From positions 8,804,001 to 8,868,000 of the forward strand of contig NC_135261.1 of the NCBI RefSeq assembly GCF_964204865.1: a stretch of 64,000 nt of DNA. The letters are read 5' to 3'. This document shows positions 28,444 to 52,881 of this stretch, one piece after another (position 1 is the stretch's first letter; every line of letters starts with the position of its first letter). The notes beneath the pieces were generated by a model, which worked only from the letters and a program-made list of their open reading frames with translations, ran no database searches and was not told where the DNA came from. A program made the position numbers and the translations under genes. The stretch comes from Styela clava. Lineage: Eukaryota; Chordata; Ascidiacea; Stolidobranchia; Styelidae.

Positions 28444-31400
28444 TTAGTAGGTGCAAGAACACAAATAGTCCGAATCCACCAAGGCCTGAATGTTGCAGCT
28501 AGTTTTACAGGCTAGGTACCGGAAGTCTCGAAACAATTTTTGTCTCTGCTCCTGCTTCAGATCTGAAAATAATAAGTAGGCATAGTAAAAATAGTTCTGA
28601 ATGGGTAAATGAAGACAGAGTGGTAAATCTTAGTAATGTAGGATTGAATTGTTTTTATGTGGATGTAAATATAATAAAACCATTCGTCAACCGTATTAAA
28701 TTGTGTAAACATGCTGGGGTAATATATCAATTGACGTTAAAAAATCTTCGATCAAGAATTAATTTATTTGAGTTTGCATATTAGGAAATTTACCTTCTGG
28801 ATTGGTGTTAGTTACAGGCTTTGTTTCTTCAGTTGTAGTAGATTCTACAACCGGGGCCTGGTAGAAAATACAGATAAGAAGATAAAAAACTAATAAGAAG
28901 ACAAATACTAATCGAAGAATACCTATCAGTGCCCATATATTAATTGGAATTTCCATCCGATGGCTTTTATTGGATAGTGTTTCATGCCTATACAGTATGG
29001 TCCGTTTTAACAAGGTATAAACAATGTAGTTGTGAGCAGATGACATGAAAAAAAAGAAGCATATATGAAGACGATACTTCTGTGGTGTCTTCCTTTTGCA
29101 GTTTCTCCCAATCTTCCTCAAGAGTTCCGTATAAAGTAAGTACCATTGGTGACCGGATAGCTATCAAAATGAGAAATTAATTTTGGATGATGTTCTATAT
29201 TTGAATAATTATTGTTGATTGAAGCAGGCTGTAGAATTTCTTTTATATAGTCTTCATCTTTTTATTACCAGATGATTTAGGTGAAAACACCTGTAATTTA
29301 TATCAATTTGATGTATGAGTTTCATTGGTCTTGTGGTCGAAAAAAGTTGTATACTTGAAATACTACTTTACACAAAATTTTGGGGTGCCCATTGTGGAAA
29401 CAAAAGCATTTTTATTATTGTGAATGATGTTAAATAATAAAAATTGTCCGAGACGAAATATGCAATTTTGGTTTTATTTTGGCTCAAATTGATTACACTT
29501 CCTATCCCAATTTTTGCAATACATTTTGAAAATACAAGCATTATAATTTACATGAATGCTATGAAAAAACTTATTGTGTGTACATTTGTATACTTGATGG
29601 TGATATCTGTGAGTTGAGCATTGAATTCATCTTAGAACTAGCAAATGATCATAGATAGAAATTTTGCGGTAGACGATGACAAATATTTAACACATGATAA
29701 CTGGATAACTACATGTCGTAACTTTATTTCAGCTGAGCAATGATGAAAAAACTGAATAGTTGGCACATAATGAAACTTAAAAACATTTCGCATATACTGC
29801 CCAGATTTCATTTTATTATTCATTAAACATACTGGCGTAACTATCCCGTTCAAATCGTGCAATCCAATCTCCAACCGGATTTTCATCCCAAAATAGAATT
29901 GAAGTAAAGACCCAATTTTTGTAGCCATAAGATATTCGAGAACTTCCCCAAACCCTGAAATTTGAAATAACAATTACATTGTAGGCATAGAAAAACGGGA
30001 ATTTTGCAGACAATTTATTTAGCTCCAGCACTGATAGACCGTCAACTGGAAATTTGAACAATGCCTCGTTTTACGTTAAATTTCTCGAATGGTACTCCCG
30101 TAGTATGTGAACCAAGATGACGAACATCGAAACGTATTATGTGTACCAGATTAGGGTTAGGCCATAATTTCAGGTACATATACTACGGGAGTCATTTGAC
30201 TAGTCCCCGAACTCGTAATAGAACTAAATAAGGGAAATTGGAATGAAATTATGGCTTAACTCTAACCTGGTACACATTCTACGTTCCGGTGTCCGCCATC
30301 TTGGTTCGCATACCACATGAGTATCTCTCGAATATGTAAATATTTAAATAAAATATTGTGAATTTTGATGATTTTACCTCTGAGCAAGTATAGGAAATTT
30401 TGTACGAGATGGTGATTCCAAATACATTTTAATATCACCGAGATTTTGCGTGATATATGTTGATATCATGATCGTAACATGTTCGAGTCTATCTGGAATC
30501 CTACCACCATTTTCACAAACCGATGTCTGAAAGAATATAAGGAAAAATAAGTCAAAATGAACAAAAATGAAAATACTAGAATTCCCTAAAACAAAAGGTC
30601 CATTTCAAGTATATATATCCTCGCAATGCGAGTTATAAAAAACATATTCGGTTCATTTCTGCACTTTCCAATTTTTAGAATATTTAAAAGAATTAAACCT
30701 TCATATACTATCATGTTGGAAGCAAGGGGCAACGTACAAATTAGTATAACCACTGTTTTATCCACTTTTAGTATATTCAAACTGTTCACAGCCACGTACA
30801 AATGATTAAGATCCAAGTGAATAAAGTTCTGATGAAAGGTGATATTTGATACAATTTTAGCTCCATTTTAAAAACTGTTTCGTTAGAAACTGTCATACTG
30901 TAACCACAGTACGATTTTTTGTTTTATTTTATGTAGATTATGTTAAATTTATGAAATTTTTAGTTTAGTCAAAAATTACAACTGCTTATATTAGCTTACT
31001 GGTATTTGCACAATCTTTGGCCAACGAACATTCATGCTCCATCCTCCATCTCGTCTCAATGTGATTCTGCATGACACTTGTCGGGGTACCAACACCCAGT
31101 CGCGTGCTTTCTTGACCATTGCATGAGCATCCATTAAACCAAATCCAAAAGTGCGACTTACTAAAAAAAAAATTGAAAAAATTTCATTTACAGATGGTCC
31201 TTTTTTCTGGCGGACTATGTGAATGTTTCGAGTTTAAGCTGGAATGGAACCGATGAACTTTCTGTCCACTCAATTATTCAAGTCGCAACCACCAAATTAT
31301 GAGTTACATGTACCCGATTGGATGTTTCAAAATAATCGCATCGTTAGCCAGAGATTCAAATCCGCTACCCTATCCGCGGTGCAAGAAATTTTGATGGAAT

Positions 31401-34400
31401 TGCTGTGCCGGCAACATCTCAATAATTGGAAAACTTAGCGACTTTCTACAACTAACCGACTGCTCGAGCCTTGTTGAAACAATGGCATAAAAATAGTTAA
31501 AAATAACTTATTGTATTAGAAAATAGGAACTTTTTGAACGGAGAAACAAATGACAGTCTTCTAATAAAGAAAGAAAATATATTATAATGCACTTGTTAAG
31601 TTCTCTACATATTTTAAACAGGTAAGAATGAAACTAACTATTTCTTCCAGCAGCATTAATCCTCCAATCATCTGAAATCAATCCTCGTCGACTGGCAGTT
31701 TCAACAATCAGATGCTGCATGTCTCTCCAGGTTAAGTCCGGGCTGAAATATAAAATATTATAGGCATACGACTACTGTAATCAAGTCTTTTATTTTTCAC
31801 TTGGGCCATAAACCAATTAATTATCTCGACTAAAAACAATTTTGATCGTCCTACAGTCTTCGGCCGAATTTTTTTTTCGACCTTCTCAGACAATAACTTA
31901 AAAATTCAGAACGATTTTTTTTTATGTTCGATCGTTTTAACTGCGGTGCTGTAAATAGAAGTGACCGTTGACTGTTTCAGATCCCGTGTTCGAAGTCTGG
32001 AGCGCCCCATACTAATTGAAATGGTTTGAGAATTTTATTCATTGTATATTGTACTTGGCCTCTAACGCTAGTGCACATATTCCCGCAGCAACAGCAACTG
32101 ATCCACCATTTCCTTTAAATTCAGAAGTGCATTCACCATTTGGTTTGGTTGTTGCCTGTACAAAGAATAAAGAAATAATTTCCAATAAATGCATATTTAT
32201 TGGTATGCTACAAAGCATTCGAACTAGAGTACTTCCTAAACCCGAAAGTTTCAAATCGATCTAATCACAGTTTATATTAAAACATGATTTAGATATTTAG
32301 GTGTTGCTTTTAAATCTGAAAAAAAATCATTAATTATAAAAATTTTGACTGGTTCAATGAGTTGATAACCAGACTGAAAACCAGTTAAGTTATATAGTAT
32401 TGAACTATAAAATACAACTGACCATTGACCAATGAAGTGGAGTTCCGCTGCTGTAGGTAACTGCCATCATGGACGAGCACCTTTCTCCGTACCACGCCTT
32501 TTCCGAATCACTTGAAATACTTCCAATTCCTATTGTATAAATACTGTTGGAGTATCCGTCGCAGTTACAATCGTCATTGTTTTTTCCGCCATTTCCGGTA
32601 GACCACACGAAGATATTTCCTTTTCCGTCTCTTCCCTGAAAATAATTATTAGTAATTTCCGGTGTTCCACACCGTGTCCAGATTGTTTTCATTAACTTAC
32701 ACATCTTTTCATGAGCGGGAGGAAATGAGAGAATCCCATTATGGTAATTAATCTCGAGCACGTGGATGTCCCTCTCTCTTTTTCCTCCTCCTAGAATTTT
32801 CTCTCTCGCATTCAGTCAAATTCTCTCCTTTTATTAACCTCTCTTAAATCCGGTCAAATTTTCTCAAATTTTGTTAAGTACATATGAACGCAATCAACTT
32901 GTTTTGTATTCAGCTCTAGTTATTCATAAGTATAATCTTTATTAGTTATAACAGCTTTTTGAGAGATAATATGATAAATAACATATAATACAATGGAATT
33001 GATGGATTAATTATTGGATTTTGATCGGTTAAATGACAAACAACCTTTCTCAAAGCGTCTGAAATGAAAGCAATTGAAATTTTGCTATGTCTAGAATTTT
33101 GTGTATTTTTCACAGTGACATACCTCACGTATTGCTTTTTCAATTGCCATCTGCGTTTCTGGTCCCGGGCCGCCTATTGCAAATCCATCATCAACAGGCC
33201 CATAAGCTCCCATATAAATGTCAACATGATTGTTTGCAAAACCAAATGCACGTGATTCCAGATTATCACTCACTTCACCATCGAGAAGGCGAATTCCTGG
33301 CGAATAATAAGAACGAACAAAATTAAATCTAGTAAGCATCGTACAATTAGGCATTAAAGTTATGACACATGTTGGTACAAGCAACTATACATGTGATGAA
33401 ATCATCATATATCGAGGTTTAAGTTCCCTTGAAGATGACAATAAAAGGCTGCAGAAATGTTTTTTGTATCCTAAAATTTGATGAAAACAAAAAACTGCTT
33501 CCGTGATATGTGTACACATTCCGGGTAAATACATACAAAGCACAGGGTAAATACATAGATGTTAGAAGATATGCCAAACAATCTAATAGCGCAAACGCAT
33601 ACTGAAAAGTGTTAAAAATGAAACCTCCGATTCTTGCTTTAGGAGCGACCCCAACAGAACAAACGTCATTGTTCGCCGTTGCTGATATGAGACCAGCAAG
33701 TTGTGTGCCCACATTGTTTGCGTCTCCTGGTACGGGTCGGGGTGTTGGATCAGAATCATCATTGTTGAAGTCGTAAGATGCTGCTGGATCCTTTTTAGAT
33801 AGATAATATTAAAAATGATGTAGTAAGTTGAGACTTTAGCAGCGAATGTATGCGATTTCAATACTATTAATCTGTTAGTGACGGAAATCATATCTGCACG
33901 AACAAGAACAAGTAAGCTTATTCCTACATAGTTTTAATTTTTTAAATTTTATTTTGTGCAATATTAGCTTTACAAGTACAGACAGTTTTGTGAATGCGAT
34001 TTTGGTTTAGTTTGAACTTACATAATTTTTAATAATGTCCGGGTGGGCGTGGTCAAGTCCATCAGAAATAACAGACACAACCACTCCCTCTCCCGTGAAA
34101 CCTTCATTCCATGCTTCTTTTATATTCATGCTTGGATTGGTCTGGTCGCGCTAAAAAAATAGAGAACGGTTCGGTATTGGCTTTTCTGCATTTAACAAAC
34201 GAAAACTAATTTTTGGACACGAAGTGGACCTATGGATAGATTTGCTGTTGTTTTTGTTGTTAGGGTCTTTCTTGTCATTATTGAAAAATGAGATTATCAC
34301 TTTCAAATTTATTCAGAACTTGAAGATGGTTGAAGCGCTAAACAGCGCTTATAACATTTATTTTGTGACTTTTGAGAATTTTGCTTTTTCATTCAAATTT

Positions 34401-37400
34401 ATTGGAACACCGTTGTACAAAAATGGAATCACTTTATTTCGTCACCCTGGCGTGCGTCCGTCACGCTTATCCGCTGATATCAATGGCCTTCCCAAGTAGG
34501 CGAACAAAATTGGTTACCTCCGTATTGGTACACACACTTCTGGAGTGCCCTTTATTAATTGAACTTAATTGATTAATAATTATTAATTGAAAAAATACCA
34601 AAATGTCTTACTAAATGCCAGGCATCTTTCCAAAACGGATCATTAAAGTCTTGAATATCACAGTCACAAGATTGCTGTATCTGAAAGGAAGTTATGTGAA
34701 AAGTTAAATAATGATATACGTTATTTAAATCGGGAATATCGGTCATTTTGACAACATTTATTTAAATAATGAAATATCAAAATTAATATCAAATAATTCA
34801 GAATATATAGAATCGATATATTTATAGTGTGAATGTTTCAATTTACCGGTAATCGATTTATCAAGATTTTGACCTAATTGTATCAAGCATGCAACTTTTC
34901 TATATTATCCCGAAAAATGGCAATGGTAGCTTTTTGAGGATCCAAACAAGTCAAAGAGAATTTGGGAATTAGAAATTTGTAACTTGTAAAACATTCTACA
35001 ATACAATAAGTAATTTATGAAATCTCAGTAGTTTATTATTTGTTGAGTCTCAATAAATTACAAAATTTAATGGATGTGAAAATATATTTTTAAATTCGAC
35101 ATTTACCTGGTTCGTGTTTGATTCTTCTGCTGGTTCCTATAATAAAAGTGCAGTATGTAAGATCATATTGTTATTGACAGCACATCCAACATAGTTGTGT
35201 TTAAACTATATTTTAGATCGAGATTGACTGAAATTGTATGTTTCATGAAAATATAGTAACCTGGAGTCGACGACTGAATCGAATCTGAATATTTGTTTGA
35301 TATTTAGGAATTGAACTATGAACTAACTATACCTCATACTGAATTGGCTCGCGTGTCAAAGTAGTTTCCCAATCTTTTTCTAAAGTTCCATACAGGGTGA
35401 GGACCATTGGCGAAATAACAGCTGAATAAAAAATAAACGAACATAAATAAGTAAAGTAGGTTATGAGCTGAAATTTTCATTAAATTAGACTTCTCAGTGA
35501 GTAAATTGTTTATGGCTTCACATGTGAGGTTATCAGACATATTACCATAGAATTATGTACATTTTATTTTTATATAAACAAACTGGTGTATTACTGACTA
35601 AAAAAAACTATATTGATGTATTCATACTCGAGGGATAATACAAGTTCCGACTTTATTATTAAAACTTGTAGAACGAATAGAGTCATCGTTTTCTCAAATA
35701 TAAAATTAATTAGGACGTTAATACTCCATTGATGAATTAAATATTTTAAATGTATGCCTGAACCCAGTACCGATACCTGAACCAATTTTCGACCCGGGTA
35801 CAAGCAAATCATGCAAGGATTGGAGAACAAGGTCTCAACTCATTTAGGGTATATTCATATACTAATAGGACAAGTCGAGAATGATTGTATCAACATGTAA
35901 CGGGAAAGTATTAAAATATTTATTTACGAAAGAGTTGATTCAGTAATAGGTAAAAAACCCTCGACCACACAACGTTGAGATATCTAACATAGAGCAAATA
36001 ACTCTTGATGCTAAATTGGGTAAGTAGGCAGCAGTTTATGAACGGGAAGCAAAATAAGTAATTTGGATTACTTGAATAAGCGTCATGTTCCATGGTAAAA
36101 ACCCAATCTCCAACAGGATTCTCATCCCAGAATTGAACAGAGGTGAAATTCCATCGTTTATAAACATTGTACCTATCGTCTCTAAGTCTAAAGTAATTAC
36201 GACATTTTTTAAATAATAAGGTACAGTATTTTGATAATTATCTACTAAATACAATATGCTTTGTAATGTAAAATTTGCTTTTCTTGGAGAAATCCCGATT
36301 TCAATTTGGTGAACTTATCAAAATTATCACAAACAGATTGTTTAAAATTGATTTCAAAATAAATAAAATTGGGTAATCCCGTAGTATGTGTACCAGGTTG
36401 GGGTTAGGCCATAATTTTATTCCGGATTTTCCTTATTTCAGTTCTATTACGAGTTCGGGGACATCTGTGTTAGCCAAGTGTATATACTACCTGCCCATAG
36501 GCTTCAGTCCTTTTAGGCTTTTACACAACTTGATGTAAACTAGGCGAACAAAATTAGTTACCTTCATATTGATACAAATATTTCTGAAGCGCCTAAAATT
36601 GTACATATGGGCACCACATCTCAAGACGACAATTCCATAAACCAGACTCACCTATTCGCCAACAACTTAGATCTTGTTCGAGAAGGCGAATCCAAGTAAA
36701 ATGTAAAATGACTGATGTCTCGGCTCTTATATGTGGATATCATCAGACCAACATGCTCAAGTCGGTCCGGGATTACTCCATCGTCTTCACAAGGATACGC
36801 CTGAACAGCAGATATAATATTAGCGTACAGAATCGGAACTAAAGAATTGCAGCTGGATGACGCAAACGCCCACATTCGTAAAACCCATAAACCTAGTACA
36901 ATACAAGCATTGTGACTAATGAAGTGAGAATATCGTGATCCCAAAAATGGCTAATAATGAGTTTCTTTTTTTTTTAGCAGGCTCACAAAGCAACCTTTAA
37001 CACCAAAACGGACAAGTTTGAAATACTGCACAAGCAGAAAAACATTCTCAACATCTTGCTTACCGGAAGCTGTATGCTTCTGGGACGCCTGTTCACGCTC
37101 CAATTGTTAGAATTTGTAATTATTATTCTACAAGATGTTTGAGGCGGAACAGGAATCCAATCTTTGGCTCTTGTGACCATTGCATTAGCATCCATCATTC
37201 CAAATCCAAATGTACGACTGACTAAAAAGGGTTTTGAGTTCGGGAAAAAATATAAAAAATTATCATTTCAAAAGTTGGTTAAATCTACCATTAGTAAATT
37301 TACGCTTGAAATATGTTAACAGAAGAGGCGATCCAGTAGTTTTATTCCCATTTTCCAATTTAGTTCTATTACGAGTTCGGGGACTATAGCCAAGTAACTC

Positions 37401-40400
37401 CCGTGTTTTTTTTACCTGAAGTTATTGCCTAACTCTAACATGGTACACATACTACGTTTCGGTATCCGCCATCTTTGTTTACATACTACGGGAATACCAA
37501 ATTATCGAATGTAGACGTATATGATGTGACTAAAAAGTCATACAGACGTTTCGGGCCACGGTCGGGTTGGACCAGACATTTCGGCTCGCAATTACTCATT
37601 TCGTTCCTCAAAATTAATGAAAGTGAAGTATTTCGTTATTTTAGAATTCAATATTTTGTTATTTTAATTAATGAAAGTAGACGTAAACTTAAATAAAACA
37701 ACACGATCCTTGATTTTCAAACATGTTCGCCTGGTTAAATACCTACTACTCCAAAATACTGTTTATGAGAATTAAAAGTATATTGATATTTCCAATTTGT
37801 TGATTTATAGAAATTACTCATAATTTTCAGACAAACTGATATTTTATTAATAAAATTGACCTGTTCTGTCAGCTGCGTTAGTTATCCAGTCATCTGACTC
37901 CAAACCCGAAGGATTTGCCGTATTAACAATCAAATGTTGCATATCTCTCCAAGTTAAATTGGGACTGAGAAAAACAAAATTAAGAATTACTGAGAAATAA
38001 TTACAATTACAAGAAGAGATAGAGAGAATTTTTCTATTTTTCAATTTGTAAATATAGATAACATCTTTTCGCGGTTTTCTATCGAATCTTAACGTTCTGT
38101 AGCAAATGGTAAACAACTCGGCCATCGCTGATAAATGATCGCTGATATTAAAAAGCTAATATGATAGAGGCATGTGTTATATGTAGCTACTGTTCACAAA
38201 CATTCGATCCAAGAGAAGACAAATTTCAATTGCCAATGCAAAATGAAATCATTTTTAATATTCATCAAAAATCAAGTCTCGAGGTGAGTTTTTAACATGC
38301 GTTAGTGACGAGGATGTACCGGGGCAATTCATACCACATATCTATCCTCTTTCTCAACTATATTAATGTTTGAGTTCCAAAGACGACATGACGTGTGGCG
38401 TCATTAAAATCTCGGATAGGCAATGTATTAGTATATTCACGCCTACAAATGCTAATAAAAGAAAATCACTCATACTTGGCTTCCAATGCGAGCGCGCAAA
38501 TTCCTGCTGCCATAGAAACTGACGCACTGCTGCCTGTTTGTTTTGTAGTGCAGCCATGGCCAAGGCTTGTTGTTGCCTGGAAGTTATAAAACATCAACTG
38601 TTTGAACTATCATTTATTAGAAATGACATCGCTATTTGATTTCATATTACATTTGATGATTAATTTTGCTGGTAAAAAAAAATTAAGTGAAAGTTATCAC
38701 AACTTTAACCATAGAGTAACAGAAAGTTTCCAATTTGCAAAATACAGCAATAAAAATCGGCCCTGTCACAGTTTTGAAGACGATATTGAATGGAAATCGC
38801 CTTTAAAGCATATTTGAAATGTACATAACATTTAGATACAGCAATGGGAACTTTAGGTTCGCATAAACCAGTCAAGAACCAAATATAATACCATGTTTTT
38901 ATGTAGACTAGTTCCTCCACCGTATGTTACAGCTAACATTGATGAACATTTCTCTCCAAACCAAGCTTTCTTTCCATCACTAGAAATACTACCAACTGCG
39001 ATTGTATATATACTATTCGCATATCCGTCAGAATTACAATCATCGGTATTATTTCCATTTCCAGTTGACCAGACAAAAATATTTCCTTTGCCATTTCTAC
39101 CCTGGAATAAATTTAAAAATTTTTTTGGTAGTTTGGTGTAAGTCAAAACCCCTGCTTATAAAATGGGCGGAATGCTGCAAATTATGTAATTTTGGGACAA
39201 TCACTTATTCGTGAGAAAAGCGCATATTTATCACATCTCCATCAGTAAATTTAGCATATAACGTAAATTTATAAATCAAACTTCAATCCGTGTTGCAAAC
39301 GGGGTACAACTTTTTTTTAATATTTTTATGTCTTACATCCTTGGCGCACCACTAAAATGGACTTTTAACATGTATATATGACTACCTCCTTCACTGCCCT
39401 TTCAATTGCTTTTTGCGCTTCCGGTCCAGGCCCAGCAATGGCGAGTCCGTCGTCTTGTGGACCAAATGCACCCGCATATATATCGATATGATTGTTTGCA
39501 AAACCAAATGCTTGGGCTTCCATTTTGTCATCTTGTTTATCCACATGGAGTCTAATACCTTAAATTTGTAACATTCATATTATTTTCATTGGATACTTTT
39601 GTAAATTTAAGAATAAGATTCATTTCAAACCTCCAATGCTCGATTTGTGTGCGACACCGACTGAGCAGACGCTGTCATTAAAATTTCCAGAAATTAAACC
39701 CGCCATTCTAGTTCCCAGTCTATTTGCATTATCTGAAGTTACCCGTGGCGTTGGTTCAGCTTTGCCATCGATGAAATCGTATGAAGCCATCGAATCCTAA
39801 TACACAGAGAAAATACTTTACGTAGAATGCTATTGTATTTTCCAAAACTAGAAAAATTAAACTTACATAGTTGAGTGATAAGTCCGGGTGGCTCTGCTCG
39901 ATACCGTCGTTAAGTACAGAGATAACTACGCCTTTCCCAGTTAAACCTCGTTCCCATGCTTCATTAATTCTCATGCTCAAGCTTGTTTTTGTTTGCTATG
40001 AAGTAAATTTTGGCAAGAATCACGGTTTTTTACAAGAGAACAACAAATACAAATTTTATGACTTTAGATTTTAGAAATTTATCGGTCATGTAAGTTTTGA
40101 ATAAATTTAATAACGTAAAAAGTATGGTTATAACTCATATTTGAATTTCCATATCAAAATTTTCAATATTACTTACCAAATACCATGTATCCTTCCAAAG
40201 AGGGTCGTTGTATTTTGCTACATTGCAATCACAATATCTATCCACCTGAAGCATAATAAAACAATATACGATTAAGGAATAATTTTATGGCTATATCATC
40301 TTACAATTAGCAGCATTCAATACATTGGACGAATCATGGCTCAAAATAAAAATCTGCGAATTAGGACATTAAGCCTGCTCTTTTCAATTATCCATTCGGC

Positions 40401-40768
40401 GACATTTTGGTACGTGATCCCACTTGCTTAACGTAATCTCAATTGCATACCAAAGTGTCGCCAATCCTTTAATCTCATAAATACATTCTCACAGAATTCA
40501 GTTCCTAACTCTATCCCTGTCATCGTTGTACTAAGGTTAGATTAATACAAAATTCACTGAGATCACACAGCCGCTGAGATTGGGTAACAAAGCGGCACAA
40601 TCTTTTCGTTGCTCTGACCTTGAAATACCTGTATAGTGAACGTAATGAGGAACTATGTACCTGTTGTTCTATCGCGTCTTCCATAGGCATCCTTCGAGCA
40701 TCATTATAATGATGATATGCATTAGTACTCACGATGACACACAGAATGAAAATTAATCGCTTCTTCAT
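28444..40768 (-). CDS. double-headed furin/kexin-like pseudoprotease (two S8B-type units plus P domains, about 1084 aa)
   Basis: Twenty-six exons read in one continuous frame. Unit 1 runs from the ATG at 40768 to 35107; unit 2 runs from 34680 to the TAA at 28444. One signal peptide ([17 protein letters not shown]) precedes unit 1. No start or signal exon is visible before unit 2, and no terminal exon is visible after unit 1. A 30-bp exon (35107-35136, [10 protein letters not shown]) begins and ends in phase 0 and joins unit 1 to the phase-0 first exon of unit 2. The catalytic triad is mutated in both units. The family processes precursors in the secretory pathway; this protein should be secreted or lumenal and unable to cleave. 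It lies head-to-head with an intact paralogue (44242-52881). There is no prodomain, no furin Cys-rich region and no membrane span; the protein ends in a four-Cys tail. The alternative is two adjacent genes with unseen end exons. Confidence 0.72.
30091..30325. repeat. MITE family R2 copy in a unit 2 intron
   Basis: Bounded by 'ggtactcccgtagtatgtg' and 'cttggttcgcataccacatgagta'. The interior holds 'gtccccgaactcgtaatagaac' and two 'accagattagggttaggcc'-type blocks in opposite orientation. Confidence 0.7.
34208..34270 (-). repeat. R1 terminal fragment in a unit 2 intron
   Basis: Contains 'tttttggacacgaagtggac' and a 'gttgtttttgttgtta' tract as at 18430. Confidence 0.45.
36371..36593 (+). repeat. 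MITE family R2 copy in a unit 1 intron
   Basis: Starts 'taatcccgtagtatgtgtac' and ends 'tatttctgaagcgcc'. It is the inverted counterpart of 25189-25408 over its full length. Confidence 0.75.
37326..37496 (+). repeat. MITE family R2 copy in a unit 1 intron
   Basis: Contains 'gttctattacgagttcgggg', 'aactctaacatggtacacat' and the end 'catactacgggaatacc'. Confidence 0.65.
40390..40510. repeat. dispersed repeat R4 in the intron after the signal exon
   Basis: Matches 9891-10010 through 'cacttgcttaacgtaatctcaattgcat' and 'tttaatctcataaatacattctca' blocks. Confidence 0.6.
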
Positions 40769-41786
40769 TTCATGGATACGGATTGTATAACTGCTTTATA
40801 ATTAACATGAAGAACTGTTAATAGAAATAGAAAATGAATATGTTGATATACTTCGGGAATGACTGATTGCATAAATCTTTTCACAAAATTTGAAAGAAAT
40901 TGAAACGTACGATCATCATATGATGCTGATAATAATGCCTAATCTTGAATCTAGTTGTTTTTATATTGTACTGTCTGTCTGTCTTTATACTATACTGCGT
41001 TTATTCTGTCGACATACATCGTATGTATAATTTGTGACTCTGCTCTACTGATTTAAAACTATTTCACTTCAGATTTCTGCAACAAATCAATGCAATTCTT
41101 GAAAATACTATTCGGAAGTTGTTCTGCAATAGTTTCAAATAGTTGGGGAAATGGGACTGTTGCAAACTCACTCACGCATCGCAGTTTAAACAATATGCAG
41201 CAAGTACATTAGATTTGCAAGCCAGTTAAAATATTTTGCAGGCCATATCCGAAAGAAAACTTTGTTACAACATTACTATATTTAAAAGACGAAGTTATCT
41301 TATATAGCCTACACTTTTTTGCCTCTGGCAAAACAAGGAAATATCGTTTACTTCACTTCAAAATGATTAACATAATAAAGAGTGTCACTTGCAATATTAC
41401 GAAAAAAGCATGTTATTCTTAGCATATGTGATTTGAATTGGCCCGCATACTTGCAACACTTTGAGGTAAACACAGGTATTTGATTTTAGGTTGATATCTC
41501 GCAAAATCTCCGGTCGATCGTGTCAAATATCCGTCACGGAAAGTACCTCGGTGTAATGCCGGTTCAATTTAGCAAACTAAACGTTTCTTGCGTTTCAGTG
41601 TTGTAATATTAGATAATTTATTTATTTTCATGATATTGTTGAAGTAAGTGCAGTTTATGGAAGATATTATTAGTTTCCAGATATAAAATACTTAAACCAG
41701 GTATTCAAAATGTGTGCTAACCAATTTTTCTAAACCTGCAGAATGAGTATCACTTTTTTGTTATTCAGTACCTCCACTCAGATATA

Positions 41787-42001
41787 CAGAGTGGCCCAAA
41801 AGTAGGTATACAGTTGATAAACTATTTTATATGCTTTGAAGCTACTTGCAGTTCATTTTATGTTACTTGTTAAGTACCACAAAAAATGCTTATTTTTTTA
41901 GATAATAAATCTAGAGTGAATTTTACATTAGTTTTCTAGCTGCTTGGGAGGTAATAAAAAAATAAATAAAATAACTGTATACCTACTTTTGGGCCACCAT
42001 G
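41787..42001. mobile_element. mariner/Tc1-type MITE, 215 bp
   Basis: Terminal inverted repeats of about 27 bp: left CAGAGTGGCCCAAAAGTAGG and the inverted right end CATGGTGGCCCAAAAGTAGG, both continuing TATACAGTT. It is flanked by TA on each side (41785-41786 and 42002-42003). No coding capacity. Confidence 0.9.
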
Positions 42002-42411
42002 TATATATATAAAGAAAGAAAGCACATTATGCTAACAACATTTCTTCTTGTTTTTATAAACGATAGTTTGTTTTACTTATATTTAATTTTTCACTCACAC
42101 ACACACACACTGTAAAGTTTTTGTAATCTGTAAAAGTGTAAAGGTTGTAGCGGTTCATCACGAGTCAAATCGGTCTTGTGAGCTATGATTGTATTTAAAT
42201 AATATAGCCTATTTTGAAATTGAACAGGCCGTGTGAAGTAGTTCGTGATCACAGCTTATGTGCGGCTAATTCGACAGTATTTGCATCCATACGGAGAATA
42301 GAATTGATTTCAAACAGCCATGAATTACGCCTTGTCAAAACCATAACAAAATTTTCTGGAATGGTTAGCTAGACGAGAGTTGAATATCAGCGATAAAACG
42401 TTTGGGATCTT

Positions 42412-42655
42412 TTGTACAAAGCTCTCGCCACTAATGCAAAAATATGAGATTTGAGAATAACACCCCTGTCGCGTTTAAAATAGCAAATTAGTAGATTATC
42501 CACTTAGGGTTCGTTTAGGAATAATTTGAAAATTTAAATTTCCAGCGCAATCTACATTCCTAGCCCTCACCCTAACTGGATAATTACTAATTTTGTCATT
42601 TTGAGCGGTGGCTGGGATGTATTTTTCATGCGGGGGCGTTGTACAAAATATCCAA
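42412..42655. repeat. dispersed fold-back repeat R3
   Basis: Shares 'actaatgcaaaaatatgaga', 'tttccagcgcaatctacatt' and 'ccctaactggataattacta' with 55150-55371. The ends are inverted (ttttgtacaaagctctcgcc and gggggcgttgtacaaaata). Confidence 0.65.
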
Positions 42656-43544
42656 CGTTTGTACGACAGACGGAAGACACCTTTGTAAACCAGAACGCTT
42701 CGTATTTGTAGTAATCAGGGGATAATGAATAGAAGTGTGTACGAACTTGATATTAGCGAGTTGTAGTGATGTGTATGTATTTAGTTTGTTCATTTTAAAT
42801 GATAACTGATCCTGATGACTGATCATTTTTTTAAAAATTGATTCAAGTAAAATTGATGTCGGAAATGTGCTAAATGTGCACGTTGTTATTATTTTGAATG
42901 TTATCAATGATGAAGTAGATTACATGAAACTGGTAAAATCTGGAAAGCCCCAGTTTTCAGGCTAAATTCCAAATTCGTTGCAATTTTTTTAAACTAGTAA
43001 TTTGGGTCAATAAAATGAACAAAAATCGAAGGGGATATTTTACATTTTTCGAGCTAACTACGTATTTTCTCAACTACAATTGAAATCGCGTGGAAACACC
43101 CTATTGTCGGCGGCAATTAATTCTTCTGATTTTTTTTTTGCATAATTGCAAACAGAATATGCTTTTCATTGGAATTGATTGACCATTTACGGTCAAACAA
43201 TTTCTGACAGCACTCCAAAACTGGGCCAAACTGTGCAGTTTTATTAAATTGTTATTGCCCCAAAAGGTTACTTCAGTTTGTCGCATTGAAAGGACCAAAT
43301 AACTGCAGGCGAGAAATTTTGTCTTGTTTATGACTGGAAAATACCTTTTGGTTTGTCGTTCACGTAGGAGTTGATTTTGAAACAGATTACAAGTATCGGT
43401 ATTATTTTGGACTTAATTTAATAAATAGAAGTGTTGAGCCTGACTGCCAAACACCATTTCACAGTGAAAGGTGAAGCTGTGTCGTGATGAAGTTTGTACA
43501 AAAGCATTACGCGCTGCTAGAAGTTGAATAAGACTATTTTGTGA

Positions 43545-43615
43545 AGCGTAGCTCAATTAAGATAGCCGTGTTGGACTCTTCATCAGTGAACGCGCGGTTC
43601 CACTAAGTCGGGAAT
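43545..43615 (+). repeat. possible degenerate tRNA-derived SINE head
   Basis: 'gtagctcaattaagatagc' resembles a tRNA A box and D arm. A 'gcggttccactaag' block lies at B-box distance but deviates from GGTTCRANNCC. It does not fold into a convincing functional tRNA. Confidence 0.25.
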
Positions 43616-44241
43616 AACACGGAAAGGGGACCTAATTTTGTTGGGGCTACTTTTTTCCTCAACTTTTCTAAATGCTCTGTAGAGATACAATCATATATAC
43701 TTTGTTAAACAGTCTGTATGTACATCGAGGGCCTATGATTTAAACAAATTTAATTAAAGTTTTGTGATTGTCTGGGCTATTTTATTTTTAAATCGAACAC
43801 CACGATTTCCGTAAATCTGATCCTACTGTCTGCCTCACAACAACACAAACTTGGTGTGCGCTTGATAACTCAAAAAAAAAATTCAACACTTTAATTTGTT
43901 TTAAAATTGTAAATTGTAATTTAAGATATAATGTGAACGCCGAAGGCTAAATTATTGTTAGATGCCAAGCAATGTTATAGACGGTGCCTATAGACTTATA
44001 CCAAACATATCTTCTGCTTCAATCACGGGCCAAGAATAATTGAACGCAATATCATTTTATTTTATATAGAAAAGAACTTAGAGTTGGACATTTTTATTTA
44101 TTGTCAAAAAATATTATGCTGTTGTGTGGCTTTCCAGAAACTTATGATTCTGACTGTAGCATGGTATTCTTGTTATCAGGTCTGCGTAGCGTATGAGTTC
44201 GCTTAGTGTTACTTCCCAATCCTCGTGCATGGAAAGCTAAA

Positions 44242-47200
44242 ATGAGACGAGTTTTTCCAAGTGTGTTAATTGTGATGGCAATTCTAGCATTTGCGCCCAC
44301 AAATGGAGTGAGAAGACTATTGGAGTTTGTAGAACAAGATCAGGTAGGTTACAAATATTGAACTAGCGATCTTTTGCCATTAACGCGAAATTGTGGTAGC
44401 TCAGAGTACATTGAGATACCGTGCGTGGCTGATTTTACTGGTCGGCTCACCCTTCCTTTATTATTCCATTTTCAATTATGGGCCTGCGAGTTGAATTATA
44501 AATATATTTTTAGCTTGATGGACCATGTGATTGCAATGTCCGTGAACTCAATGACCCTTATTGGAAGGATTCTTGGCATTTGGTAATTATTTATTTTTAT
44601 TTACTTTATAACGATACCTTGTTATCACAACATTATCACTGTAATTTTTTTACTTCAGTTAAACGAAACTCAGCCAAGCATGAAAATCATCGAAGCGTGG
44701 GAAAAAGGCTTCGCAGGCAAAGGAGTTGTGGTGACTGTAGTCGACGACGGACTTGATTACCGACATCCAGATTTAATCAATAATTACGTAAGAAAAATAT
44801 ATTGCAACACTACGAATCATATTCATTCAAAGACATTACAAATAAGTATGTTATAAACATACACACAATTATATCAATTTTTCATGGGTGAGTTCTGTGG
44901 ATACGCTTAACTTACAAGAAAATTATTTGCGAGAATAAACTTCTACATAAACGTAGATTTGCGAGAACGAACTGCAAAAAAAAACAGTTTTGAAAATTGT
45001 ATTCAAAATTGTTGTACCACTATTCTTGTACTTGTTGTACTATTCTGCCACAAGAAAATCTTTTGCGAGAATAAACTTCTACGTAAACGTAGATTTGCGA
45101 GAACGAACTGCAAAAAAAACAGTTTTGAAAATTGTATTCAAAATTGTTGTACCACTATTCTTGTACTTGTTGTACTATTCTGCCACAAGAAAATCTTTTG
45201 CGAGAATAAACTTCTACGTAAACGTAGATTTGCGAGAACGAACTGCAAAAAAAACAGTTTTGAAAATTGTATTCAAAATTGTTGTACCACTATTCTTGTA
45301 CTTGTTGTACTATTCTGCCACAAGAAAATCTTTTGCGAGAATAAACTTCTACGTAAACGTAGATTTGCGAGAACGGACTGCAAAAAAAACAGTTTTAAAA
45401 ATTGTATTCAAAATTTTTGTTCTACTATTCTTGCACTTGTTGTACTATTCTGTCATTCATTTTATATCAAGTGGAGCCGCTAATTGAATATTCCTGTCCC
45501 ACATTATGTTTTAGGACACATTATGTTTTTATTATGTTGTTGTTGGTATCCTTGTTGTTGTTGTAAAAAAAATTGCTTCTTCCTCTAACTACTGAATCAA
45601 TTGCTTAACCTAGTGGTTGAATATTGTTGTTGTTGCTTTTATTTTTTTTGAAAATTTCTCTGGGCTCTATGGGATTCGTTTTTCACTTTGAAGTTTTGTG
45701 TGATGACGTCATCAAAATTTAAAATTGCGCACTGTGGGGCTGTTCCGCGATCTGGTGGCCAGGCAATACTGGTGCTGTAAAAGATTTTAGACTACTCCGT
45801 GTTAGCATTCGTGTACATATATCTGAGCATTGCTCTTTTGTTTTCAAATTCATAGGTCACTGATTTTAATATTATTTTTTGTTTCGTCACTAACGGATAT
45901 TTTCAAATTTTGCTTCCAATTGCAAGAGTTATTACGCAGAAAAGTAGAAGCAGGCTTGCTTACTTGATCATCAATTTTACTATCATCACGCTGCATCAGT
46001 TTTATAATTGGACAAATAATAATGAAAAACTAGTACTGCAACATGACACAACTGACAACTGCCGGTGCAACTTTATTACTGTGTCCAAGCTTTAGGTAAA
46101 GCCAATCTGTAATGTATTCAAGCTTTGGAGTTGTGATGTTTAAAATTGTATCAGTGTCTTTGTTGATAGAATTGTTTCATGACTTTGTTTATATCTTAAT
46201 CAGGACCCAGCAGCTTCGTACGATATAAACGATGGTGATTCTGATCCTACGCCTCGTCCCACTTATACTAATGAAAACAGGCATGGAACTCGGATGGCAG
46301 GAATTATATCAGCGACCGCTAACAATGAAGTTTGTTCAGTGGGAGTTGCTCCGAAGTCGACCATCGGGGGTAAGTATATTATTAGTTTCAGCAGCATCGG
46401 GGACAGGTTTTTAAACAGGAATAACCTAAACATACCTGAGTATTGAGTAATTGACAATATCACTGCAAAATCATAACATAAATTGATGTCAAAAATCAAC
46501 ACGCGCTTTACCATCTTTCGTTTTAAAATCTTTTGCAATTTTATATTAGACTTGGTAATATATACTTTTACAGGCATTCGCCTACTTGATGGCAACGTCG
46601 ATGACGATGCAGAAGCTGTTGCTTTTAGATTTGCTAATGATCATATCGATATTTATGCAATTGCATTTGGACCTGATGATGACGGTAAAACAGTTGATGG
46701 ACCGGGGCCAAAAGCAATGGAAGCAATAGCAAGAGCTATCAAAATGGTGTGATTCTTGTTTGGTCAATATCTTTTATCATCAGAGATTTGAATCTCATAG
46801 CAAAAATTATTTACAAGCTACAAATACACAACTGAGTTAGTTGCTAATATGTTATCTGAATATATTATCCGAATATGTTATCCGACGTTATCTAATCATT
46901 CAATCGCTTTAATTAAAACTGCAAATTGAGTCGCATCGCCGTAGTAATCCACATACGCTAGCTCTCTCCTCTCTCGTCGCACGTTAGCCCACATGGGCTT
47001 CTCAACGCTATTAAGTCTAGCACATGGAAACCTACTGTTAATATCGCTCTTAGCTGTTTATTGACGTAATGCCCTGATATGAGAGAAGCGATAAAACCTT
47101 CCAGCCGTGACGCAAAGTGCGAATCGTATAAATAGCGTGGATTTCAAAATCGCCTGTCAGACGTCTGAAAATGTCGACTCAGCCCAGACAGGAAATACTC

Positions 47201-50200
47201 CTTTATAGCGACTTATTATTGTTTTAGCATGTATTTTCAGTCATACTAACTATCCCTGATCATTCCTGGTGCTGTGTTGTTTTGATAAATATGATTTCGA
47301 CTGCTCCATAGTTGGCAGAAGTATGGAGATTTTTTGTATGTAGAAAAAAACGTAAAATTAATGGTGATTTTAACGCGTAAATGCGCGTATGGGATTGTTT
47401 ACGTCGTTCTACTCGCATTTCCGTCGAAAAAATTTAATTTTTTTGCATTGGGGGTGGTCTGTGCAGTAATAATAAGAGCTGTGACGTCATCAGTATCGGT
47501 AATTGGACCTTGAACTTGACAATACTGTAAATACAATTGTGAATTTCAGAGTAATAACCATTTATGCTATAATAGTCGTTTCGGTATTGTTATGTTAGGT
47601 AAAACTTGACGAAAACGTTGAAGAAAAAATTAATTAATTAGGAATTAATTATTAACCCTCTACTGTACACAGAATATCTCAAAGTCCAATTTTTTTTTTA
47701 GAAATTTTTGAAATTTTTTTGCAAATTTTTTTTTCGAGGAATGTGTTTTAAAGATATATTGCTGAATGGAACTCTAGCAGACGCTTTTAAAAAGTCATGA
47801 GTGAAGCTTAAGGGCTTAATGGTTGACAAAAAAATAAGTTTAAAAATACCCATAAAATGGTCAGGGATTGGAGCGGTCGGAAGGCTAGAGTAGTTGAGAA
47901 CTGGGTTTGCCAAGAAGATCGCAGGCTAGTCTGACGTAATATCACATGGTGGCGCGATATGCGCTAAAATTGAAAAATTTGGTTGAAATAGCGTGCCTTA
48001 CAAGACTATCAATAATAAATAATTTGAAAAGAGCCTACTGGCGTTTTATTTATTTTTATTACTAAAATTTGGAATCGATTGGTTCATTAGTTGCAATATA
48101 CATCGATATTTTACAACAACAAGAACAACAACAAATTCGTAAAACGATCCTATTACACATTTCGTGTCCAATGAATTTAGGGTAGAAATGGAAAAGGAAG
48201 CATAATCGTTTCCTCAACTGGAAACGGAGGAAGATATTTTGATGATTGTAACTGTGATGGCTATTCGAATAGTATCTACACAATTGGAGTAGGAAGCGTA
48301 ACGAGTAACTCAACACAGCCTTGGTTCGGAGAAAAATGTTCATCAATGTTGGCGGCAACATACAGTTCAGGTGGAACGAGGCACAAGGAAATGGTTAGAT
48401 GGATACAGTATATTATATATCTCATTTAACATTTGGCCAAGTTGCAAATTATATTAATTTTTTTTTTCTGATAAAAAAAATGCTTAAAGCAAGGAAACGC
48501 GGAAACGTGCACTCACTCAGGAATAAATAAAACTAATCCATGAGCAAAGTCACTGGCTATCATTGTGTTACGAAGATCTAATGAAACTACGCGTATTTAG
48601 TTGTCATAGCAACCGTGTCATTTCGGTAGTTTAGTCGGGAATCAATTAGCACTTATGTTTATTATCAAAAATGTATAAACATCGTATTCTTGCTATGTAC
48701 CATTGACTACTAACATTCTCTAAGTAACGATCCAATTAAAATCGTCATGATTAGCACCAATTTGATCCGTCTATGAATTAACAACACATTTTTGGAATAT
48801 TTCAGACAACAACAGATTTGAATAGCCGTTGCACCACTAAACACACTGGCAATAGTCCATCGGTATCGATTGCTGCTGGAATGTGCGCTCTTGCCTTGGA
48901 AGCAAAGTGAGCAGAACAAATTTGTACTTGAATAAATGGCGTGTAAAATAAACTATAACGTTTTTTCCAATTTGTAGCCCATATTTAACGTGGAGAGATA
49001 TGCAACATTTGATTGTACAAACCGCAAACCCATATGGCTTGAAGGTAGATGACTGGATAACCAATGCAGTAGGGAGAAAAGGTTTTCTATATACATTTAT
49101 GACTTCTTGTTGGGCTGTTAATTGTTAGACACCTTCCTTTTTTCCTGAACGTTAAAAGTAGTACTAATCCTATTTCACGAGTTTAATGTACTTCAACCAT
49201 TTGCTCCAATTTTTATATCTACCCCAGCATAAGAGCATCATGCTTCTTACCAGTTTTCTTTCTAATAAATTTCTGGTAAACACATTTCCCCTTTTTATTA
49301 TTTTGACGGCCCTAAATCGCGGTTATGTCGTGTAATATTTGATTATGAAACTGTGCAAACCAATATAAATGATAATCAGCAATTAGCATTTTTGTAAAAA
49401 ATCATCCACTCATAGTGGAAAAAGAGGTAACTTGTGCGTGTGCGATATGCGAACCATTCTGCCAAGCAGAAATCAGCACTGTTTTTCCATTAAATTAAAA
49501 CAACCAAACTAGTGTCTTGATCGGCTTTCCATATTGGGTATTTTGTTAACTAAAATCAATCATCTCGTAGTATTTTTAATGGCGTCTCATAGTTCTTCAC
49601 TTTCTTTTACTCTAATGCGATGTAGTTAGCCGTACATTTGGATATGGATTGATGGACGCTGATGCAATGGTGACCAAAGCAAGGAATTGGACCCACGTAC
49701 CCAAACAAGTGTCCTGTAGAGTAACAGTTCAAGGGTCAGAATGGTATGTCAACAACAATCGTCCTACAAGTGTACAGATTTCGGTTAGTACACTGCAACT
49801 TTTTTTTAGTATCAGTATCAAATTATGTTGAAACAAGTCTTTAATAGGCAATCTCGCAAAGTAACTTCCCATCATGAATGAAGGAAGCCCCCTAAAGGCT
49901 TCTTAATACTAATCTAGCTACTTGGTATAGTAAGTCTGACTTAGAAGAGACTCCATGCTCATTTTATTATCCGGGTGTAGTAGGAAACAGAAAAGATCCA
50001 ATCCTTGCACAATAAAGAGTAGCCGCTTGCGTATCAGCGACTGATCATACAGACTCTTGTCGGAGTGAAGTGCTGTAGGACGCCTCACAAAAAGTAATCA
50101 CAAAATTTTATTGCAAAGATGGCTTCAATGTTAATAGTCTTCCAACATTTCTCATTAAAATTCACCAGACATTTCCTTGCGAAGATGGAGGCATACTTCC

Positions 50201-52881
50201 CGATAGACTTGAACATGTTGTTCTAAAAATAAACACTCACAAAATCTATCAACTTGGATTGCTGTCGATTCATCTGGAGTCACCTTCACATACACGATCA
50301 ACAATGGTTGGAGAAAGGTGAAATTAAATTTCGTTTGAACAATCGAATATTAATGAACGAATTCTGACACCTTTTTAACGATGTATTATCATTAGTATTC
50401 TGTGATTTTTTAAGCTTTTCTGAGCCTATTTCAGATTTTGAATTTCAAACTATTTTTTATACCGTATGGCAAGTAAAAATCATACACTTGATAACTTTAC
50501 TTTGATTCGCTGTTTTTCTGAGCATTGCCATCTATCATAAATGATCTAGGAGTCTATTATTCCTATTTGTTCCACATTTTGAATCATATATACGAGGCTC
50601 AATATTCGCAGTGTTTACGAATGAAAATGGTAATTTACGATTTTATGCCAGTTTAATTTACATTTTAGAACAAAAATTGATAATCGATACAGAGGTTTTT
50701 TGAACTGGAATTTCACTTCAGTTCAATTTTGGGATGAAAATCCAATGGGTGACTGGGTTGTGATTTTCGAACGGAAGAATTACGTCGGTGAGCCAATATA
50801 AAAATACAATTCAATAAAAGATAACTACTACTGTACTGCTTTCACTTCAAATTAGTCAAGTCTAGGATTCGAAAAATTGGTTATTGGAATTTTCACAAAG
50901 TTATTTTATGAAAATATCTAGGATGCTCCAATTTTTATCTAGAGAACTGGTATGTTTTTTATACATATAACTATTTGCGAAATTATTATTCTTTTGAAAG
51001 TAATTTGCAATTTGATCAAAAAATTATTTCAATTGATAGCAAAAAATATCGCTGTAGTGAATGAATGTATTAGAACATTGAAACACTACGGTATACTATG
51101 TAGTCATTGATGCTCTGCTTTGATGTGCTTCATTTCATGTCTTCAATATTTTAAACGTCACATGTTTTGAGTTTTTTCCTTTTATTATTTCTTGTTTTTA
51201 TTTGTATCAAAAGCCATTAGAAGTCCGATTGTATTGACACTGCACGGTACTCTGGATGAAGACTGGGAAAAACTGAAGCCTCGACCAACAACTGCCCTTG
51301 AGGTAGGAATGCGTTTTAACAGTAATGTGGTTTGAAATCTGTTGTTTTTATGAATATTATCTTCATTTCAAATTTAAGCCATAGCCTAAATGAGTATGAA
51401 TAAGTTTTACCGCAAATCATGTCTGTATATTGTATGTGACCTAATACAATTTCAGCGTATTCTACACAACATGGTGGATTCTTCCCCGAGCATTGACAAC
51501 GTTGTTTTTTTCCGTTCCGTAAAATTTCTATGGCGACGCAGCAATCGAAAGTTTAACAGCCACTCAAGCTTCGTTAGACAAGTCTAAAATAAACTTTCAG
51601 TACTTTTTAAATGGAAGGTGGTTTGAAACTTTGAATCAGCTCAATGTTAAAGTGCACGAAGAAGTTTCCTGGAGTCAAGAGTCGGGGAAACATAGTTTCA
51701 GTACCATTACCTCATATTGCCATTGTTTTGTGTATTGATTTATTGTTTAAAACGAATTTGAGTTTGATCATGTTTGGAATTTGCTCATGTCGATATACAT
51801 CTCATGTGCGAGCTCGTTCAACCTAGTTTCAAATATGATTTGATTCATAATATTGAAAATAGAAGGGAAACAAACACAATCACAATTTGTTTTAAATTTC
51901 AGAAGCCATTGATGTACAAACGATATTTGTTCTAATAATTTTTCTGCTGAGGTTTGATAGAACTGATGTTACTGATACACCATAAAATTAGAAGCTGGTA
52001 TTAGCATGTGCTTTTAAAATTAACTAATTTGAAAAAAAATAAAAAAAAATTTGCACAAGCATAAATATATATACAAAAAAACTCTAATGTATTGAAAATA
52101 AATTTGTCAGTTGTACATTTAATTAAGATTTTGTATCCGTCTGTAATTCATGGCCGTTGTGAGTTTTCCACTCATGCTTCAAACCATGGGGGTTTTGTTG
52201 AATGTTCAAGTATTGGCCAAATCTTAATAATAATAAAAAAAAACACGTTGAACAGCTTTTTTCTGCCTTGTTAATAGGCCCCCGTAGAAGATGAAACAAC
52301 CGATAAGACAACCGTTACAGGAACTTCAATTGATCCTGAAGGTAGGTAGACCGAAAATCTCTATTATTAACAAGAGAGCTATGCTCAAATATATGGACAC
52401 ATAGCGCCACCCAATGGCAATAATTTTGATGACGTCATAGCGAGAGAAAAAAGTAATAGCTTTCTGGAGAAATATTTTTTCGTTGACCACTGAAAATTTC
52501 TAAGCAATTGGTCCAGTATTCGAAGAGAAAAGCGATTTTTTAAAAATGATGGAGACAAATAATAACAATAACAACATAATATTGAAACGATCGTTATGTC
52601 CACTACGGGTCCAATAACGTGTTCTAACACGCTAGATGCGATTTTACTTTATTACTTTTTTTATTGCTTAAGTTTATATTAGTGCTATATAAATTATACC
52701 AACTTTTGAACACGGTGGAGGGAATACTAATTATTCAATACTTTAGCTTCAACACAATTTTTCACTTACAGAAGAAAATAAACAAAAATTGCTTCGAGAC
52801 ATGAGATACATTGCTTGCAAGACTGGATGTCATATACAATCGTTGTTTGAACCGGACAAACCATGCAATTGTGTCTTTTAA
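44242..52881 (+). CDS. furin/kexin-like proprotein convertase with intact catalytic residues (581 aa)
   Basis: Fourteen exons: 44242-44343, 44514-44582, 44659-44787, 46204-46369, 46574-46746, 48181-48393, 48806-48906, 48978-49081, 49626-49783, 50169-50317, 50669-50787, 51214-51302, 52278-52341, 52772-52881. All phases match. A signal peptide ([14 protein letters not shown]) is followed by about 12 residues, then the mature-type start [13 protein letters not shown]. Catalytic Asp 86 (VVDDGLDY), His 127 ([10 protein letters not shown]), oxyanion Asn 228 (STGNGG) and Ser 301 (TGNSPSVS) are spaced 41, 101 and 73 residues apart, identical to furin. The S1 and S4 pocket motifs CNCDGY and DDGKTVDG are kept. 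A P domain follows ([26 protein letters not shown]), then an acidic Thr-rich linker and a four-Cys tail. Expected to cleave after basic residues in the secretory pathway or outside the cell. It lacks the usual prodomain of about 80 residues and any membrane anchor. Confidence 0.9.
44918..45463 (+). repeat. minisatellite: four tandem copies of a 135-bp unit in intron 3
   Basis: 'gagaataaacttctac' recurs at 44931, 45067, 45202 and 45337 (spacing 136, 135, 135). The inner copies are almost identical; the last has several changes. The unit length is a multiple of three, which keeps two overlapping frames open. This is why long repetitive open frames appear here. Confidence 0.93.
45515..45840 (-). 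repeat. full R1 copy in intron 3, reverse orientation
   Basis: Opens with 'aggacacattatg' and a 'ttattatgttgttgttgg' tract, holds 'gggctctatgggattcgtttt' and 'tgatgacgtcatcaaaatt', and ends 'gtacatatatctgagcattgctctt', the inverse of the family start. Confidence 0.75.
46747..48084. other. intron 5 of the convertase gene, no further gene recognised
   Basis: AT-rich with homopolymer T runs near 47690-47730. Short open frames on the minus strand have no support. Confidence 0.5.
48085..48178 (+). repeat. R1 end fragment abutting exon 6 of the convertase gene
   Basis: Carries the 'acaacaagaacaacaacaaattcgtaaaacgat' tract and terminal 'catttcgtgtccaat' of R1. The acceptor atgaatttag follows at once, and exon 6 starts at 48181. 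Confidence 0.6.
52376..52615 (+). repeat. R1 copy in the last intron of the convertase gene
   Basis: Starts 'gctatgctcaaatatatgga', contains 'attttgatgacgtcatagcg', 'aattggtccagtattcgaagag' and 'aataacaacataatattgaaacgat'. Confidence 0.75.

Follow-up and report, generated by a model that had tools for sequence, protein, structure and literature searches.

A furin-derived clade with no recognisable prodomain, including a predicted double-headed pseudoconvertase, in the sea squirt Styela clava

The genome of the sea squirt Styela clava carries, at one locus, a furin-derived clade of three units with no recognisable prodomain, two of which are predicted to form a double-headed pseudoconvertase. 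Judged from its sequence, the clade is real and under selection, and so far it has been seen in one species. The prodomain of furin-type convertases is held to be necessary for folding and control. A chordate lineage has apparently dropped that domain; two of its copies are short of catalytic residues and appear to have been joined into one. A triad-bearing unit, C, and the dead double unit, B-A, adjoin head to head. Subtilase pseudoproteases are already known; the double-headed convertase form would be a new variant of them, and a partnership between C and B-A is plausible.

The window, the whole stretch of DNA analysed, spans 64,000 nucleotides (G000:C16:8804001-8868000) of a contig of 21,360,319 bases in a genome of 376.6 Mb. 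Exons placed from the raw sequence form two coding regions whose outer ends coincide exactly with 28444-52881, with the following features (residues numbered as in mouse furin):

44242..52881, plus strand: gene C, a single furin-derived unit of 14 exons and 581 amino acids (ATG 44242, stop 52881)
44242..44343, plus strand: C exon 1, the start, a signal-peptide-like stretch and RR, spliced directly to the mature N-terminus
44659..44787, plus strand: C exon 3, carrying D153 (VVDDG)
46204..46369, plus strand: C exon 4, carrying H194 (NRHGTR)
48181..48393, plus strand: C exon 6, carrying the oxyanion N295 (STGNGG)
48806..48906, plus strand: C exon 7, where the motif around S368 differs from its furin counterpart (HTGTSASAPLAAG)
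49626..51302, plus strand: C exons 9-12, the P domain
52278..52881, plus strand: C exons 13-14, an acidic/Thr tail, a four-Cys C-terminus and the stop
40769..44241, no strand: the head-to-head intergenic stretch, 3.5 kb, no Pfam match at E<=1 in six frames
28444..40768, minus strand: gene B-A, the predicted double-headed unit of 26 exons and 1084 amino acids (ATG 40768, stop 28444)
35333..40768, minus strand: head B (exons 1-12), with D153N and H194L, N295 and S368 kept, and a P domain
40661..40768, minus strand: B exon 1, a signal-peptide-like stretch and RR
40177..40245, minus strand: B exon 2, the in-frame choice in the splice model
35107..35136, minus strand: the linker exon, 30 nt, phase 0, 10 residues
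28444..34680, minus strand: head A (13 exons), with D153S, H194V and S368G, N295 kept, a P domain and a four-Cys tail

AG and GT stand at the exon edges inspected in both models, and the reading frames of C, B and A are open throughout. The homologous exons of the three units are nearly equal in length, bearing out the initial annotation, which had described three furin/kexin-type units with a common exon pattern. An alternative B exon 2 at 40451-40516 lay out of frame and was rejected in favour of 40177-40245. Spliced B+A is identical, letter for letter over all 1084 residues, to a protein predicted by NCBI (P0121; LOC120330211, uncharacterized). C differs from P0001, another Styela clava record of C that is named 'furin-1-like', at 16 of 581 aligned positions, one of them an indel; these are, in our judgement, many for a single species. 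Pfam assigns one S8 domain (PF00082) and one P domain (PF01483) to P0001 and two of each to P0121, in which nothing but S8 and P domains scores above cut-off; the convertase order of S8 catalytic domain followed by P domain is present in C (via P0001) and twice in B-A. Heads B and A and unit C all begin with a CxC element (CDC or CNC). The four-Cys tail occurs on C and A and is absent from B, where the CxC pair is left without the partner that it may have in C.

Comparison of the locus with itself gave 26 nucleotide matches, 14 of which pair homologous exons, the other 12 being a minisatellite and dispersed repeats; no homologous intron pair was seen among them. The minisatellite lies in C intron 3 (44914-45452; a 135-bp unit in 4.0 copies with 97% matches), and a fold-back repeat, possibly a small mobile element, is common to introns of heads A and B (30085-30331, 36380-36462 and 37337-37499). 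Rfam returned 0 matches within the window at gathering scores, and no Pfam match above a curated cut-off came from six open reading frames or from the plus-strand frames of 1-6002.

We aligned the units to mouse furin to examine their catalytic residues. C retains D153, H194, N295 and S368, the Asp, His, Asn and Ser already attributed to the plus-strand unit. At the same positions head B reads N, L, N and S, so that of the four just the Asp and His are lost and the oxyanion Asn and the Ser are kept, and head A reads S, V, N and G. The minus-strand units thus show a loss of catalytic residues, as previously ascribed to them, which proves to be D153N and H194L in B and D153S, H194V and S368G in A; they retain open frames and P domains. 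The GTS motif at the catalytic Ser is absent from all units, being GNS in C, GSS in B and GNG in A. From these residues we infer that both heads are inactive. Residues and dN/dS together make heads A and B candidate subtilase pseudoproteases, in which the triad is lost in a maintained gene.

The comparison set comprised 229 proteins listed from three protein searches, amounting to 236 matched heads, and D-H-N-S is present in 228 of these 236 listed heads. The eight that depart are both heads of P0121, that of P0012 (S368T) and one in P0123 (H194N), the other four being partial matches (P0002, P0008 and two in P0125). P0012, an unnamed ENA entry of 626 amino acids, is a convertase with a prodomain that keeps D, H and N, carries S368T and has GNT for GTS; it is likely to be an independent pseudoconvertase, and it was rejected as a relative of the clade, since it groups elsewhere in the tree. 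Within the Styela clava genome, Asp, His and Ser are kept in all seven other convertase loci with readable triad exons (C3:11.9 Mb, C4, the first copy on C9, C10, C14, C18 and furin). At the C4 locus Asp replaces the oxyanion Asn, which we take to mark PC2. Two further arrangements were seen in the same genome. A convertase-like open frame of 805 codons that keeps D-H-N-S (L001/L020, G000:C10:11.77 Mb) was matched in one piece and is a likely retrocopy. A set of convertase 3′ exons is also present three times, nearly unchanged and at a spacing of about 8 kb (L009-L011, G000:C9:9.99-10.02 Mb); exons for Asp, His and Asn were located just in the first of these copies.

The dead heads preserve much of the furin framework, with disulphide, calcium-site and similar roles presumably as assigned in furin structures. 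All six disulphide Cys (211, 303, 333, 360, 450 and 474) and all three Ca2 ligands are present in both heads, and calcium-site positions match mouse furin at 8 of 12 in B and 9 of 12 in each of A and C. C305 is Ser in B only. The S1 residues D258 and D306 are kept in both heads, as are E236 and Y308; the acids at 191 and 264 (S2/S4) are lost in both. C has the same S1, S2 and S4 acids as Styela clava furin.

The dN/dS ratio over the 495 codons aligned in all three units supports strong constraint on the dead heads. Pairwise omega is 0.021 for A-B, 0.055 for A-C and 0.070 for B-C, values to be taken as orders of magnitude given saturated dS (2.1-4.0 per branch). The firm part is the rejection of omega=1 in all three pairs (2dlnL 363.8, 314.8 and 272.5, respectively); the neutral value near 1 against which the initial annotation had proposed to check the units did not occur. 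In a three-branch model dN is 0.146 for A, 0.145 for B and 0.148 for C, so amino-acid change in the dead heads is no faster than in the triad-bearing unit, on branches that may include time preceding residue loss.

Both trees that we built recover A, B and C as one clade (100/100) among tunicate furins, within which A groups with B (99/97 and 99/98). The residues point the same way: at 10 positions A and B agree with each other and C is furin-like, and the corresponding counts are 6 for A with C and 3 for B with C. The clade sits on a long stem next to Styela furin, a pairing supported at 81/69 in one tree and at 95/87 in the other. A genome search with C, in which the best 69 candidates were scored, found members of the clade at this locus only, the rest being paralogue loci. 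The three protein searches covered 5.77 billion sequences, each scoring about 7,990 candidates and listing 120 of them, and the matches listed include no orthologue outside Styela clava; other ascidians are represented among them by Ciona, Phallusia and Clavelina only, and nearer relatives are not represented. Near the top of the listed matches are ordinary furins, along with entries of two domains that come from nematodes, one arachnid and one rotifer.

The absence of a recognisable prodomain is shared by the whole clade. At E<=1 the S8 pro-domain model PF16470 finds nothing in P0001 or P0121 and nothing in six frames of the intergenic stretch 40769..44241; Styela clava furin (P0003) has one such domain. 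The N-terminal S8 prodomain with an RXKR site that marks convertases was found in none of C, B and A. In the furin gene the prodomain occupies exons 1-3. C exon 3 and furin exon 4 are both 129 nt long and the boundaries of the exons that follow correspond, indicating that the gene layout of furin is preserved in the clade except for its prodomain portion. An RR follows shortly after the signal-like stretch in exon 1 of both B and C and is possibly the relic of a mini-propeptide.

We also searched the window by tblastn with seven prodomain queries, which reach E 5.8e-22 on the prodomain of Styela clava furin. The best match in the window is the following:

63041..63163, plus strand: a weak furin-prodomain-like stretch about 10 kb downstream of C, a lead and not a claimed part of the system

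This stretch is open (E 1.5e-4) and scores 17.6 bits with PF16470 against a cut-off of 25.5 (E 0.006). The next match, 46935-47207 on the minus strand in an intron of C, has a best E of 0.005 and two internal stops, and all further matches in the window have E 0.3 or worse. The best null value was 0.013 in 30 random windows matched for dinucleotide composition, and reversed real stretches (n=3) gave 0.14, 0.52 and 0.68; both window stretches thus beat the null, 46935-47207 narrowly. The 63-kb stretch sits in an apparently well-formed exon that may belong to a neighbour gene; a sulfotransferase domain lies in the flank downstream of it, and a comparison with the PDB gave just one weak, unrelated match. 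Together the two stretches leave a small chance that the prodomain has been lost from recognition rather than being absent.

The cleft of C also departs from that of other convertases. We compared the units at 141 columns, those with a conservation of at least 98% across 221 control convertases, namely the 229 listed proteins minus 8 (P0001, P0121 and six two-headed or fragmentary entries), with Styela clava furin included among the controls. That furin keeps 139 of the 141 residues, C 120, P0001 121, A 110 and B 106. The 21 departures in C include S251A, S253A, W254F, W291S, A292S, S293T, T367N, A369P, A371V and P372S, which fall in three stretches that we take to line the cleft. The plus-strand unit had initially been called an intact convertase; with no recognisable prodomain and with 21 departures in 141 columns, T367N, P372S, W254F and A292S among them, that label does not hold, and the proteolytic activity of C is in doubt for the same reasons. 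On our reading C may still cut.

Structure models agree with a furin fold. The model of P0001 (pLDDT 79, pTM 0.80) and that of the two-headed P0121 (pLDDT 68, pTM 0.52) both have furin as their best PDB match, with TM by target of 0.92-0.95 for the furin entries listed; 3wqb, the structure of the Aeromonas sobria serine protease (ASP), is also among the matches. Head B is poorly modelled, probably as a result of the aligned furins falling on head A, and the relative placement of the heads in the P0121 model is too weak to judge any interface.

The adjacency of a triad-bearing unit and a dead double unit, neither with a recognisable prodomain, suggested that B-A might replace the missing domain. 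Combining the precedents of ASP with its partner ORF2 and of the clostridial CspBA and CspC proteins, we tentatively propose that B-A is an external folding escort and reversible inhibitor, or a sensor, of C. Nascent C would fold against the double head B-A, which would hold it inactive in the secretory pathway until a signal sensed by the B-A pair released it. Linkage, the shared absence of a prodomain and constraint fit this proposal. Against it, tandem duplication alone would leave the same adjacency, and the cleft of C is altered at near-invariant columns, so that C itself could be inactive, with no need of regulation. What stands of the interpretation first offered for the locus is a triad-bearing unit placed head to head with a constrained, double-headed dead unit; the part that falls is the intact convertase.

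Two other readings deserve serious consideration, although we think each of them doubtful. In the first, B-A is a stand-alone secreted binding protein, a non-enzymatic convertase fold resembling PCSK9 and functionally unrelated to C. The retention of disulphide Cys and P domains while triad residues were lost speaks for such a protein, and the extra CxC and four-Cys elements would suit an extracellular binder. It leaves the head-to-head order and the shared absence of a prodomain unaccounted for, though both could be history. In the second, all three units are pseudoproteases: the ancestor of the clade would have lost its prodomain and normal cleft, and C would keep its triad without cutting. 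Substitutions such as T367N, A369P, A371V, P372S, S253A, W254F, W291S, A292S and S293T, all among the departures of C, are what this reading expects. For the Plasmodium protein PIMMS2, moreover, loss of HGT and GTS was taken as a sign of inactivity (PMC5520436), and C keeps HGT and is without GTS. Against an entirely dead clade, none of the four catalytic residues is missing from C, and its S1, S2 and S4 acids take the form that they have in Styela clava furin; pure drift would tend to erase such features. Given the altered cleft of C, we regard it as almost as likely as regulation of C by B-A.

A fuller version of our proposal, a split convertase, appears unlikely. Here the built-in prodomain would have been lost and a covalently pre-paired dead paralogue would have become its obligate chaperone, inhibitor and signal sensor from outside, possibly assisted by a separate prodomain-like exon 10 kb away. 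More improbable still is a role for B-A as a decoy that binds substrates, or as a dominant negative, acting on ordinary furin or on the animal's other convertases. The retention of D258 and D306 in S1, and of E236 and Y308, in both heads speaks for this reading. Against it, neither head has the S2/S4 acids at 191 and 264, and D258, which also binds calcium, may be kept for structure only.

We consider it very unlikely that B and A are separate products, whether through silence of A or through an early end of B within the linker intron, and that there is no double-headed protein. Reading on past the linker exon, 18 codons precede a stop in frame, and an AATAAA follows shortly after it, from which a short single-headed form is possible, and the double-headed NCBI model is itself a prediction. 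That model is nonetheless identical to our splice model, and the linker exon ends in phase 0, matching the phase-0 opening of the first exon of head A. Its counterpart in A and C, exon 13, is 64 nt long and closes in phase 1, and the last exon that follows it encodes the four-Cys tail. The 426-nt linker intron holds no convincing remnant of a signal peptide or a last exon (best E 0.5 in sense and 0.018 in antisense) and no signal-peptide exon for A was found there. The minus-strand gene had been described from the outset as double-headed, and the 30-nt phase-0 joining exon, the lack of a signal-peptide exon for A and the agreement with P0121 uphold this. B and A are accordingly predicted to be translated as one secreted chain, and the join could be the outcome of tandem duplication if B's last exon and A's first exon were lost. 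A merged-model artefact was rejected for B-A, which has no prodomain or basic prodomain end between its heads; the other two-headed entries, P0122, P0123 and P0002, do have a prodomain or its basic end there and look like merged tandem genes or repeats. Decay of the dead heads into pseudogenes, to which the loss of catalytic residues might point, is effectively ruled out by frames open over 1084 codons, splice sites, rejection of omega=1 in every pair and a dN no higher than in C.

To our knowledge, no split-convertase system with a dead external chaperone has been reported in an animal; if true, the split convertase would be the first. The locus would open several questions to testing: can a convertase that has no prodomain of its own still fold, can a dead paralogue take the place of that domain, and by what route do pseudoproteases come about? 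With a triad-bearing unit and dead heads side by side in a sequenced sea squirt, it would also offer a natural test of dead enzymes controlling live ones.

Known systems resemble parts of this arrangement. Among the papers listed by a literature search, with most subscription journals outside its scope, none dealt with a proprotein convertase that is double-headed or dead, or with the Styela genes described here. Furin (PCSK3) shares the catalytic and P domains, exon boundaries and disulphides and is the best PDB match, whereas the Styela units have no recognisable prodomain, another tail, an altered cleft and, in two of three, an incomplete triad. The iRhom/ADAM17 pair, invoked at the outset, resembles the proposal in that a dead protease homologue controls an active protease, but the fold is a rhomboid membrane fold and the target a metalloprotease; no rhomboid family was matched by Pfam at E<=1 in P0001 or P0121. 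The analogy is therefore a distant one, and the subtilase precedents are nearer. PIMMS2 is described as a subtilase-like probable pseudoenzyme encoded between its paralogues SUB1 and SUB3 (PMC5520436), and is thus likewise a probable dead subtilase adjoining paralogues; it differs in being a transmembrane protist protein with a single subtilisin-like domain.

One of the two closest parallels is found in Clostridioides difficile, in which the dead subtilases CspA and CspC are described as forming a stable heterodimer that relays germinant signals toward active CspB, and CspBA is made as one fused chain (PMC12880746). As in Styela, three subtilase units are linked, one active and two dead in that system, and two of the three are fused. 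The clostridial proteins are bacterial and not of the kexin type, and the cited passages name no convertase P domain (PMC12880746). Their fusion joins an active to a dead unit and is cut apart by YabG, whereas the Styela fusion joins two dead heads and leaves the triad-bearing unit separate. NCBIfam models score the Styela units far below cut-off (CspC 20.6 and 17.0 bits against 675; CspBA 13.0 and 10.9 against 1250). The other close parallel is ASP of Aeromonas sobria, a kexin-family protease called propeptide-deficient in a title cited in PMC5638518. ASP needs the chaperone ORF2, encoded just downstream, which is also a temporary inhibitor with its C-terminal tail at the active site (PMC5638518). 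That system is bacterial, and ORF2 is not called a dead ASP paralogue in the passages concerned (PMC5638518). The likeness to Styela is one of layout only, a propeptide-deficient kexin-type protease with an adjoining gene, and B-A would be the candidate for the role that ORF2 plays beside ASP.
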